A stretch of 64,000 nt of DNA. It comes from Microcaldota archaeon. Lineage in GTDB: Archaea; Micrarchaeota; Micrarchaeia; Micrarchaeales; Micrarchaeaceae. The notes under the pieces are model-generated. The model saw only the letters and a program-made list of their open reading frames with translations. It was not told the origin of the DNA and ran no database searches. A program made the translations under genes and the position numbers. Every line of letters begins with the position of its first letter. Position 1 is the stretch's first letter. This document shows positions 33,609 to 38,440 of this stretch, one piece after another. The stretch covers positions 1 through 64,000 of the forward strand of contig JASHSJ010000030.1 of NCBI GenBank assembly GCA_030040895.1, in the 5' to 3' direction.

Positions 33609-34913
33609 TCACATCATCTTTCCGAATCTCTTCTTGAAGTTTCTGTCATTCTTCATTGTATCGAACATCTTCTTCATCTTGTTGAACTCTGATATCATCG
33701 AATGCACGTCCTTTTCTGATGTTCCGCTGCCTTTTGCTATCCTCCTTATCCTGTCCGGATTGTGTAGCAGCTTCGCATTCTTCCTCTCTGCCACTGTCAT
33801 AGAGCTTATTATTGTCTTATATTTGTTTAGTTTCTCCTCCCCCTGCTCTATCATTTCCTTTGGCACATCGGGAGCGCCCAGCATTCCAAACACGTTCTTT
33901 AGAGGCCCCATCTTGTTTATGGCCTTTAGCTGGCTGTAGAAGGTATCGAAGTTTAGTTCCTCTGCCTGCACTTCCTCCTGGGTAAGGTTTGCCTCCTTGA
34001 CCGCATCCTGGACATGTGATACAAGAGAAGCTATATCTGGTATTCCGAGCAGTCTTCCAATGAACTTGTCGGCATCATATTGCTCAAGGCTGTTTAGCTT
34101 CTCGCCAATTCCTATGAACATGACTGGCGCCTTTGCCGCATTTGCCGCGCTCAGTGCGCCACCCCCCTTCCCAGATCCGTCCATCTTTGTTACAAGAACC
34201 CCTGATATCTTCACCGCATTATTGAACTCCCTGGCCTGTGCGCCCGCCACCTGGCCTATGTCGGCGCTTATGACCAGTATTTTTTCATCTGGATTGAACG
34301 AATCTGAGACTGACTTCAGTTCTTTTATCAGTGCCCCATCGAGCGCGTTCCTGCCACTCGTATCGCAGATAACCACTTGCTTGTCCTTCAATGCCTTGAG
34401 GCCCTCCCTTGCTATCTTTCCTGCATCCTTCTCCCCTTTCATTCCAAAGAAAGCGATGTTTGCTGTCTTTGACAGCGTTTCAAGCTGCTCATATGCTGCA
34501 GGCCTTGACACATCGCAGCATATTACTCCGGCGCTTAGTCCCCTGTCCTGATAGAACTTGGCCAGCTTTGCTGCGCTTGTTGTCTTTCCAGATCCGTACA
34601 GTCCTAGTAACAATATCTTTTGTTTCTGGAGCTTGGGCGTATATGTTGCGCCCATGAGTTTGACAAGCTCATCGTAGATGATATTGGTTATATAATCAGT
34701 CGGGGCCAGTCCTGGGGGTGGCTTGCTCCCCAGCGCCTTCTCTTCTATTTCCTTTGTGAAGTTGAGAACCAGCTGTACCTCTACGTCTGCGCTCAGCAGG
34801 GTCTTCTGGAGATCCTTGTTGAACTCCTTGATGGTCTTTGCATCTATAATGGTAGACCGCGTCAGCTTTGCTATGGCCTGCCGCAATCCTTCTCCCAAGT
34901 CCATAGGAATCAA
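33609..34913 (-). CDS. srp54: Signal recognition particle GTPase SRP54 (likely start at the internal ATG encoding MDLGEGLRQ)
   Basis: LLGLYGSGKTTSAAKLAKF; DTSGRNALD; methionine-rich M domain. Confidence 0.94.
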   Translation of the reverse strand: MIPMDLGEGLRQAIAKLTRSTIIDAKTIKEFNKDLQKTLLSADVEVQLVLNFTKEIEEKALGSKPPPGLAPTDYITNIIYDELVKLMGATYTPKLQKQKILLLGLYGSGKTTSAAKLAKFYQDRGLSAGVICCDVSRPAAYEQLETLSKTANIAFFGMKGEKDAGKIAREGLKALKDKQVVICDTSGRNALDGALIKELKSVSDSFNPDEKILVISADIGQVAGAQAREFNNAVKISGVLVTKMDGSGKGGGALSAANAAKAPVMFIGIGEKLNSLEQYDADKFIGRLLGIPDIASLVSHVQDAVKEANLTQEEVQAEELNFDTFYSQLKAINKMGPLKNVFGMLGAPDVPKEMIEQGEEKLNKYKTIISSMTVAERKNAKLLHNPDRIRRIAKGSGTSEKDVHSMISEFNKMKKMFDTMKNDRNFKKRFGKMM

Positions 34914-34976
34914 TAATGAGATGAATTCCTTTTGATATTTACCTTTTTATTTATGCCTATATAAATGGTCATTATG

Positions 34977-36110
34977 AAGATGATTATAACGCAGGCGAAC
35001 CTCACTTTGATAGGAGGAGCGGAGCGGACGCTGCTAAAGATTGCAAAGCATTACAAAGCCAAGATCTACACTGCTGAATATGATCCAAGGGGCGTATTTC
35101 CAGGATACGCCGACCTTGACGTTGAAGTGGTGAAGAAGGGCATGATAAGCAGCGTACTTCCATATGGAAGGGCCATGCAAGGGCTCCACTATGGGCTCTC
35201 TTTCTATGGCTTAAAGCTGGATGACTATGATGTCATAAACGCGCACATAGCGCCATCGCACTGGATCAGGAACAAGAACGAAAGAGTGCTGTGGTACTGC
35301 CATACTCCTCTCCGCGAGGTCTGGGACCTCTACAAATATAGGATGCAGATGAAGCCATTGCACCAGAGAATAATACACGGCGCAGGAGCAAGAGTCATAC
35401 GCACCATAGATAGAAAGGTTGTCAATGACATAGAGTTCATATTCACAAACAGCAAATATACAAGGCAAAGGGTCATTGAGTACTTCGGCAGGACTGATGC
35501 ACAGACACTTGATAGTGCGCTAGAATATGAAAATTATAAATACAGGGGAGACGAGAAGTTTTTCTTCTATCCTGGAAGATTTTCTCCAAACAAGCAGCAG
35601 CTGTTTGCAATTGAAGCATTCAGGATATTCAGGAGAATGGCGAAGAATGACAAATACAAACTCGTACTTGCCGGCGCGGTGTCAAGAGATTCGGCATACC
35701 AGTCTTATTACGATGAAGTTCTGGAAGCCGCCAGGGCCGCAGGAAACGTGAAGGTTCTAACAAACATAAGCGATGAGGCACTGAGAAAGCTATACGGAAC
35801 GTGCACTGCTGCCCTTTATCCGCCACTCCATGAGGACTATGGGCTCATACCGTTGGAGGCCATGGCAAGCGGCAAGCCGATAATATCGCTTGATGAAGGC
35901 GGACCTCGCGAGACCATAGAAAACGGCAGAACGGGATTTTTGGTTAGAACGCCGAGGGAGATGGCTGATAAGATGCTCTGGACTGCACAGAATCCATCTC
36001 TGGCCAGAAGGATGGGCAAGGCGGGCGTAGAACGCGTCAAGAAGCGCTACAGCTACGAGAAGTTCTTCGAGGTGTATGACAAAAAGGTCAGGCAGGTGGC
36101 CAAGTCCTGA
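34977..36110 (+). CDS. GT4-type glycosyltransferase
   Basis: FFYPGRFSPNKQQLFAIEAFRIF; LYPPLHEDYGLIPLEAMASGKPIISLDEGGPRETI. Confidence 0.9.
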   Translation, partial: KMIITQANLTLIGGAERTLLKIAKHYKAKIYTAEYDPRGVFPGYADLDVEVVKKGMISSVLPYGRAMQGLHYGLSFYGLKLDDYDVINAHIAPSHWIRNKNERVLWYCHTPLREVWDLYKYRMQMKPLHQRIIHGAGARVIRTIDRKVVNDIEFIFTNSKYTRQRVIEYFGRTDAQTLDSALEYENYKYRGDEKFFFYPGRFSPNKQQLFAIEAFRIFRRMAKNDKYKLVLAGAVSRDSAYQSYYDEVLEAARAAGNVKVLTNISDEALRKLYGTCTAALYPPLHEDYGLIPLEAMASGKPIISLDEGGPRETIENGRTGFLVRTPREMADKMLWTAQNPSLARRMGKAGVERVKKRYSYEKFFEVYDKKVRQVAKS

Positions 36111-36114
36111 TTGA

Positions 36115-36480
36115 TCAGATCTCTTCCTCTTCTTCCTGCTTTTCCGGCTTCTTCTGCTTCGTTTCCGGAGGCCTCATCTCTATCGCGTATTTTGATATGA
36201 CCTTGGCGGCATGATCCAGAGCCCTCCTTATGTTTGCTTCAGTATTTGTCCCTGTGCAGATCATCTTGCCGTTCTTGAAGAGTATTATTTTGGCTTTTGG
36301 CTCGGTTATCTTGAATATCGCACCGGGAAACTGCTCCGGCTCGTAGTCAACGGCCTTCACCTCCTTCGAAAGCGCGTATAGGTCTATTATCGCATGAAGG
36401 TCTGCGCTAACCACTATGTTCTGTATCTTTATCACCGGCATCGGTATGTTGTTGCTACTTCCCCTGCCCGTCTTTGCCAT
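36115..36480 (-). CDS. tbp: TATA-box binding protein with a single TBP repeat
   Basis: IKIQNIVVSADLHAIIDLYALSKEVKAVDYEPEQFPGAIFKITEPKAKIILFKNGKMICTGTNTEANIRRALDHAAKVISKYAIE, then acidic tail EKQEEEEEI; only one repeat. Confidence 0.85.
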   Translation of the reverse strand: MAKTGRGSSNNIPMPVIKIQNIVVSADLHAIIDLYALSKEVKAVDYEPEQFPGAIFKITEPKAKIILFKNGKMICTGTNTEANIRRALDHAAKVISKYAIEMRPPETKQKKPEKQEEEEEI

Positions 36481-36613: not shown

Positions 36614-37303
36614 ATGGACACAGAAAAATATACCCATTACTTAAAGGTGATGGCGGCTTCGCCAGTTGGCACCACCAAAAGGATAGCGAAGATATTGGCC
36701 GGAGCCGCAGACTTCGCCACCATAAGCGAGACCTTCATGAAGCAGGAGTATTTCTGGCTGGCAAGCCATATTATGCCATCCACGACCCTGATAGACATAG
36801 GGGCTAACATAGGGGATACTGCAATATATTTCGCGCAGTTCGCAAATATCAAGAAAGTAGTGGCGTACGAACCTATGCCGAATCTGTATGTGACGGCAAA
36901 GAGGAACATAGATATGGTGCCGTTCAAGGCAAAGATAAGCCTAAAGAACGCGGCTATAGGAACAACGGACGTAAAAAGGCTGCCGAGGGACGAGGGCAGC
37001 CACGTCAGCTCATACTCTGGCAGGAAGGACTCATTGAACGGAAGACTGGTGGAGTCAAGATCCCTTGAAAACGAGATCAGAGGCTTAAGAAACGTTGCGA
37101 TAAAGTGTGACTGCGAAGGCTCTGAATACAGTATATTCACTGAAAAGGTTAATCTTGCAAACGTCTATGCTGTGCAGATGGAATATCACAGCGGCGCCGC
37201 CCGCCTTGCAAAGGTTTTCAGAAAGAAGGGTTTTTCTGTAACATACAAAGATACCTTCAGGAAAGGAATAGGATATTTATATGCCATAAGGCCTTCCAAA
37301 TAG
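36614..37303 (+). CDS. FkbM-family methyltransferase
   Basis: TLIDIGANIGDTAIYFAQ; VVAYEPMPNLYVTAKRNI. Start moved to ATG 36614 because a TATA-like box overlaps the ORF-track start. Confidence 0.82.
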   Translation: MDTEKYTHYLKVMAASPVGTTKRIAKILAGAADFATISETFMKQEYFWLASHIMPSTTLIDIGANIGDTAIYFAQFANIKKVVAYEPMPNLYVTAKRNIDMVPFKAKISLKNAAIGTTDVKRLPRDEGSHVSSYSGRKDSLNGRLVESRSLENEIRGLRNVAIKCDCEGSEYSIFTEKVNLANVYAVQMEYHSGAARLAKVFRKKGFSVTYKDTFRKGIGYLYAIRPSK

Positions 37304-37333: not shown

Positions 37334-38440
37334 ATGAAAGAGGGAGTGGCGATAGTCGGAGCAGGCGTTGTAGGCCTTTCTCTTGCCAAGGAGCTTGCAA
37401 AGACCGGAATAAACGTGGACGTTTACGACTCAAAGGGGGACGTAAAGCAGGGGGCTGCCAAGGCATCTGGCATATTCTCCGTGGAAGGGCTTGCAAGGAC
37501 AGGTATCCAGTACAAGGGAGCGGTTGTCAATGCGCTTGATGGCGCCAAGATACACGCAGGCGGAGAGCTCTTCTCCGTATCCTCAAGAAGCACCAAGGCG
37601 TATGTTCTTGACAGGGGGATATTCGCCGAGATATGCGCTGATGAGGCAGCCAGGGCGGGGGCCAGCATTGTGCTTGGAGACAGAGTCACAAGGGAACGCG
37701 TTTTGGAGCTCAAAAAAGACTACAGAGTGGTAGTCGGAGCAGATGGGGCAGTATCTACAGTTGCAAGCGCATGCGGTTTCCCGCCAGTGAACGAGTATGT
37801 GCTCACTTACAAGGCCGAATACGAAGACGCAGTAATAGAAGATGCGCACAAAGTTGAATTGTTCTTCTCAAAGGGACTGACAACCAGGTTCTTCGGGTGG
37901 ACAGTCCCATACTCCGGTAGCAAGTTGGAAGTGGGAATAGGGATAAGCAACAGGAAAGGGGCCAGCAGTTACACCGCTTTCAGGAGGCTACTCACCAATC
38001 CTGACATAAAGTCTATGCTGAAAGGGGCCAAGATGTCAGCAGGATATGCGAGCATAATACCTATAGACGCAAGAAAGAAAACGGTAATCGGGAATTCGCT
38101 GCTGGTCGGAGACGCGGCTGGCCAGGTAAAGGCAACCACGGGCGGTGGCATAATATTCGGCGTTTCGTGTGCAGGGATAGCCGCAAAATGCATAAAGAAG
38201 TACATAGACAACGGGATCGGCTTGGGGGCCTATGAGGAAGAATGGCGCAAGGCGTTCGGCCTTGACCTAAGGCTTCACAAGATGCTGCATTCATACTATT
38301 CTGCGCTTGGAGAGAAGCGCTTCAAGCTCATGATGAAAAGCGCAAAACTCATGGGCTTTGAGAACTTCCTCGGCGCTTATGGCGACATGGACAGGCCGAG
38401 CCTCATCCTCAAGAGAATACTTTTCAGAGGATCAATCTGA
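37334..38440 (+). CDS. Geranylgeranyl reductase-family flavoprotein
   Basis: VAIVGAGVVGLSLAKELAKTGINVDVYDSK; VVGADGAVSTVASACG; LLVGDAAGQVKATTGGGIIFGV. Confidence 0.88.
   Translation: MKEGVAIVGAGVVGLSLAKELAKTGINVDVYDSKGDVKQGAAKASGIFSVEGLARTGIQYKGAVVNALDGAKIHAGGELFSVSSRSTKAYVLDRGIFAEICADEAARAGASIVLGDRVTRERVLELKKDYRVVVGADGAVSTVASACGFPPVNEYVLTYKAEYEDAVIEDAHKVELFFSKGLTTRFFGWTVPYSGSKLEVGIGISNRKGASSYTAFRRLLTNPDIKSMLKGAKMSAGYASIIPIDARKKTVIGNSLLVGDAAGQVKATTGGGIIFGVSCAGIAAKCIKKYIDNGIGLGAYEEEWRKAFGLDLRLHKMLHSYYSALGEKRFKLMMKSAKLMGFENFLGAYGDMDRPSLILKRILFRGSI

Follow-up and report, generated by a model that had tools for sequence, protein, structure and literature searches.

The window, a 64,000-nucleotide stretch of DNA from a member of the phylum Micrarchaeota, encodes on its minus strand a single-lobe TATA-binding protein (TBP) of 121 amino acids with an ATG start, here termed TBP-A (36115..36480). 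The lobe comprises strand S1 with the DNA-contact residues Asn21 and Val23, the stirrup YEPEQFPG (residues 46–53) with Phe51, the motif FKNGK (residues 68–72) with the second intercalating residue Phe68, and H2 at about residues 80–99. Both phenylalanine positions are therefore present, as an earlier note on this DNA had observed. An acidic, E-rich tail follows at about residues 101–121 (window 36115–36180); the earlier note took it to be typical of archaeal TBPs, and it proves to be particular to this genome, the tails of other A proteins being short or basic.

On the 3′ side, TBP-A converges with a group 1 glycosyltransferase gene (34965..36110, plus strand), beyond which lies SRP54 (33609..34913, minus strand). 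The 5′ side is occupied by a divergent gene for an FkbM-type methyltransferase (36614..37303, plus strand; longest open reading frame from 36575), followed by an FAD-dependent oxidoreductase of the geranylgeranyl-reductase-like/lycopene-cyclase family (37334..38440, plus strand). The oxidoreductase is linked to the A locus in all 21 loci read in the window's family (f1), the glycosyltransferase in 17 and SRP54 in 13. The adjacent segment 38441–41254 contains genes whose predicted products resemble membrane subunits of an NADH-dehydrogenase-type complex.

The Pfam TBP profile PF00352 matches TBP-A at 86 bits (curated cut-off 22.9; E 1.6e-24) over positions 2–85 of 85 and in a single occurrence, giving one complete lobe, in agreement with the single repeat described in the earlier note. 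Both lobes of solved archaeal TBPs match the protein (best match 1mp9, E 4e-37), and the NCBIfam TBP profile (PRK00394 models) is matched over one half only (positions 93–182 of 183; 84 bits against a cut-off of 255). TBP-A thus lacks the two tandem lobes per chain, scoring above the NCBIfam cut-offs, of a canonical bipartite TBP. It has the intercalating Phe pair, the S1 Asn and the S5 Thr that mark the DNA face of the TBP domain family, with N21, F51, F68 and T76 conserved at 96–100% among A proteins, and as a stand-alone one-lobe protein of an archaeon it agrees with the single-lobe archaeal TBPs reported earlier. Single-chain AlphaFold monomer models were weak (mean pLDDT of 43 and 54), and with these models Foldseek matched TBP only at E 1e-3.

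The glycosyltransferase stop at 36110 and the FkbM gene on the other side leave no room for a second lobe, so that there is no hidden repeat, in agreement with the earlier note. A frameshift, a truncated gene call or an assembly gap or deletion in a normal TBP has next to no chance of being the explanation: the draft state of the assembly (763,789 bp in 34 contigs, 92% complete) is all that speaks for it, the locus is closed by flanking genes on both sides, and nearly all relatives, single-contig genomes included, carry the same single-lobe gene, which also excludes chance.

A second single-lobe gene and its distribution

The genome contains exactly two TBP matches, the window gene and a second single-lobe gene, TBP-B, on another contig (contig 16; G000:C16:5109-5354), where it adjoins the genes for ribosomal protein L21e and DUF655. 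The genome-wide search for a full-length TBP suggested by the earlier note therefore found no two-lobe TBP and a second half in its place; neither a two-lobe essential copy nor an assembly deletion, the two circumstances that the note itself had set against its reading, applies here. TFB is encoded by one ordinary gene with two cyclin repeats, and the two single lobes are the only TBP-type basal initiation factors beside it.

The distribution of these genes was surveyed in 60 relatives, among them members of f1 and of its sister family (f2), and in a wider sample of the phylum. Among the 60 relatives, nearly all f1 genomes have two single lobes, and f2 genomes have one or two. In the phylum sample, two or more TBP matches are present in 69 of the 83 listed f1 genomes and in 30 of the 32 f1 genomes that are at least 90% complete. 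The genes read fall into two clades, one containing the window gene (A) and the other the contig 16 gene (B). Each of the 22 f1 genomes for which the two loci were examined has both, including the single-contig genomes G020 and G021; B is present in every f2 genome read, accompanied by A in the six f2 genomes read at the second locus. As A and B occur together in these f1 genomes and in part of f2, they are an anciently diverged pair whose split predates that of the two families, and some of f2 later lost A.

Single-lobe TBP genes are spread across the sampled Micrarchaeota. The nearly complete genome G082 (family f11; L189, L190, L191) has three of them at distant loci, two of which lie away from L21e and DUF655. 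A canonical two-lobe TBP in G022 (G022:C43, L003 1207-1761) was considered as a counter-example and set aside: its lobes group with those of canonical archaeal TBPs, G022 also has A and B, and the contig probably stems from contamination, for which a host archaeon may be the source.

The B genes of f1 and f2, the single-lobe genes of other families and all two-lobe genes read mostly adjoin a divergent L21e gene, DUF655 or both. This common neighbourhood makes them positional orthologues. B is the gene at the ancestral locus, and A is a transposed copy in a different neighbourhood.

A proposed two-chain saddle

Residues of the DNA face and the stirrup (N21, V23, Y46–G53, F51, F68, G71, K72, T76 and G77) are nearly invariant in both A and B, which indicates that both are working lobes. 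In known TBP structures a lone lobe cannot form the saddle, and an intermolecular saddle follows. TFB is bound by the stirrup in canonical archaeal TBP. The best explanation of the whole, to which we assign a probability of roughly 0.6, is that TBP-A is one half of a two-gene TBP, that the saddle is made of two chains, A with B in this organism, and that promoter polarity is provided by TFB and the BRE.

Two chains, rather than two repeats of a single chain, would thus make up the saddle by which the TATA box is bound and bent. In this genome it would most likely be an A:B heterodimer joined across the central S1 strands, and in relatives with only one gene a B:B homodimer. With a stirrup kept in both halves, a two-chain saddle would offer two equivalent sites for TFB, and direction would come from TFB at the BRE, the determinant of promoter direction in ordinary archaea (PMC7289017). 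A symmetric saddle would then pose no fatal problem. We infer dimerisation, the preference for a heterodimer and the source of polarity. The earlier note had proposed a symmetric homodimer; its two-chain saddle remains the natural reading, all DNA-contact and stirrup residues being kept, and the plain homodimer is not supported. An A:B heterodimer is the more likely form here because two diverged half-TBPs are encoded in this genome and in every relative read at both loci; a homodimer would be expected only in genomes that have B by itself. A is in principle dispensable, since B alone suffices in many f2 genomes.

A pattern in S1 is suggestive of how the lobes might pair. At residues 17 and 20, B-only genomes have F (31/31) and E (31/31), and single-lobe families have F (96%) and E (100%); where A exists, the B protein of f1 has Y (27/27) and V or E, and A has I and Q, all of these being counts over related sequences in which kinship is ignored. 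In canonical TBP the lobes join where their S1 strands meet, so the two positions look like a pairing interface, which may have been kept for self-pairing where B is alone and relaxed once a partner existed.

Upstream of the tRNA genes, at about −28 to −40, an A + B, a B-only and a two-lobe genome each have a TATA-like box, indicating that half-TBP genomes use ordinary TATA promoters. Promoter symmetry, as a guide to homodimer versus heterodimer, was assessed on tRNA promoters, the regions upstream of called genes being too noisy; in leave-one-out comparisons with 29–30 tRNA promoters per genome, a palindromic motif performed better, equally well or slightly worse.

Many f2 genomes work on B alone, so B:B must be viable, and in both proteins the DNA face and the TFB stirrup are intact while other positions differ consistently; G009 and G013 have a second B gene. 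A and B could accordingly be separate TBPs that form A:A and B:B homodimers with alternative promoter specificities, as do the multiple TBPs of haloarchaea. We regard this as possible but unlikely, given that A was never found without B among the genomes read, that both genes are kept in nearly all f1 genomes although these measure 0.6–1.2 Mb, and that the homodimer-consensus residues are changed in the B protein of f1.

It is more doubtful that A serves as a decoy or regulator, capping or poisoning B as an unpaired lobe, with B:B as the only real TBP. Its absence from part of f2, its non-ancestral locus and its greater divergence (about 40% identity to canonical C lobes) would suit such a role; a decoy would not need both Phe residues, the S1 Asn and Val, the S5 Thr and the stirrup, which are kept at 96–100% in 83 A sequences.

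Two-lobe TBPs and the history of the lobe

Two-lobe TBPs occur in the Micrarchaeota families f3, f6, f7, f12 and f20. Their N and C lobes are 61–75% identical to each other (48% in f12), compared with 42–56% in three canonical archaeal TBPs. In most of these proteins each lobe is 63–77% identical to a Micrarchaeota single lobe and 41–52% identical to any canonical lobe; the f12 lobes are ambiguous (53–54% and 49–51%, respectively). Ala54 and Asn70, two residues that hardly vary across Micrarchaeota lobes and that none of the eight canonical lobes in the comparison has, are present in both lobes. They also have in common with the single lobes the Micrarchaeota-wide motifs FPGAI and FKNG, where canonical archaeal TBP has FPG[LIV] and [xS]SG.

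The lobe tree against repeats 1 and 2 that the earlier note proposed was built from an alignment of 85 columns with few canonical taxa, and cannot be rooted. Constraining the N and C lobes each to group with their canonical counterpart was rejected by the AU test (p 0.0036 with LG+G4; 0.0038, 0.0073 and 0.0003 with three other models), as was the same constraint on each two-lobe group alone (p 0.006–0.025), these single-group versions being rejected only in part by the more conservative SH test. Because canonical N/C orthology is rejected, the Micrarchaeota two-lobe TBPs look, from their sequences, like secondary re-duplications, in one or more events; one joint origin of both two-lobe groups was not rejected (p 0.20–0.28). 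Ongoing gene conversion as the cause of the likeness between lobes has left little sign, since in core f6 proteins the N–N (83%) and C–C (82%) identities between species exceed the N–C identities within (74%) and between (72%) proteins. For f3, f6 and f20 together, there is a slight within-protein N–C excess (70.6 versus 65.7).

Rooted with Pyrococcus and Sulfolobus, the RpoB tree places the two-lobe families in two clades nested among single-lobe lineages, f12 + f7 (support 95) and f3 + f6 + f20 (support 100), and the basal clade of the sampled Micrarchaeota is single-lobe. Under equal-weight parsimony on this tree, a single-lobe ancestor requires three changes (one loss and two re-duplications) and repeated losses require five.

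Two loci show further variation. In G136 (f6; L207 2866-3297), a single-lobe TBP occupies the L21e/DUF655 locus, whereas the other f6 members read are two-lobe. In G059 (G059:C39, L020, minus strand, last about 410 bases), an in-frame tandem of two B-type lobes is cut off by the contig end; the lobes are spaced 103 codons apart and nearly identical in DNA. This is possibly a very recent re-joining or re-duplication, or else an assembly effect.

The single-lobe basal clade, together with the compatibility of the lobe data with one group of all Micrarchaeota lobes apart from canonical N and C (AU p 0.58–0.77), might be taken to mean that single-lobe TBP survives as a relic from the time before the ancient internal duplication. 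The unrooted lobe tree also accommodates single lobes placed with canonical N (p 0.37–0.50) or canonical C (p 0.19–0.25), the relic would require Micrarchaeota at the root, and the two-lobe TBP of other archaea and of eukaryotes makes secondary loss more economical; we therefore consider a relic improbable. Of the two origins offered by the earlier note, a pre-duplication ancestor is allowed by the sequences and secondary reduction is the simpler reading.

We favour by a small measure a history in which the ancestor of Micrarchaeota had a dimeric TBP with one lobe per chain, the two-lobe form was rebuilt in f3/f6/f20 and in f7/f12, perhaps also in G059, and the Micrarchaeales came to depend on an obligate A:B pair. 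The ancestral single-lobe TBP would have resided at the L21e/DUF655 locus and have arisen most simply through loss of one lobe. In the order Micrarchaeales, the TBP of this locus would have been duplicated to a new locus, giving rise to A, and in other families a two-lobe TBP would have been rebuilt in place by tandem duplication. If this is true, the founding duplication of TBP has been replayed in nature more than once.

Relation to known TBPs and significance

TBP-A belongs to the same fold family as the canonical archaeal TBPs of Sulfolobus acidocaldarius (1mp9), Methanocaldococcus jannaschii (2z8u) and Pyrococcus woesei (1pcz/1ais), and has the same DNA-contact and stirrup residues. It differs in having one lobe per chain instead of two, with two genes in f1. 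The single-lobe archaeal TBP as a kind is already known: Ravarani et al. 2020 mention such proteins and refer to an earlier study (PMC7221094). Theirs are very probably the same kind of protein as TBP-A. In the passages concerned the single-lobe form is no more than mentioned, and neither an A/B pair nor positional orthology with two-lobe forms nor re-duplication was found. Paired A and B genes, a common locus for single-lobe and two-lobe forms, and re-duplication were likewise not found in the literature searched, which was covered in part. The study that lies behind the mention is reportedly that of Brindefalk et al. 2013 (NAR 41:2832), a paper to which PMC4132731 refers.

Other atypical users of the fold include the poxviral initiation factors VETF-l and VITF-3 (PMC12917281), in which lobe number and arrangement are also changed; unlike TBP-A, each is a large single chain that contains two or three lobes. 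The N-terminal TBP-like domain of RNase HIII is likewise one TBP lobe that serves to bind nucleic acid, but it is fused to a nuclease, and the match is weak (TIGR00716, 24.7 bits against a cut-off of 161, with a two-lobe relative as query).

The usual view of TBP is of an obligate two-lobe protein, with asymmetric lobes that stem from one ancient duplication. Within Micrarchaeota, the number of lobes per TBP chain has changed repeatedly. Annotation can also be corrected: a TBP of about 105–120 amino acids in these genomes is complete, not a fragment. Archaea whose basal transcription would run on half-TBPs, as a homodimer, as A:B or re-joined, would allow the value of lobe asymmetry to be tested on living proteins. 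How promoter polarity arises when both TFB stirrups are equivalent, and by what steps the duplication took place, would become open to testing in the same organisms.
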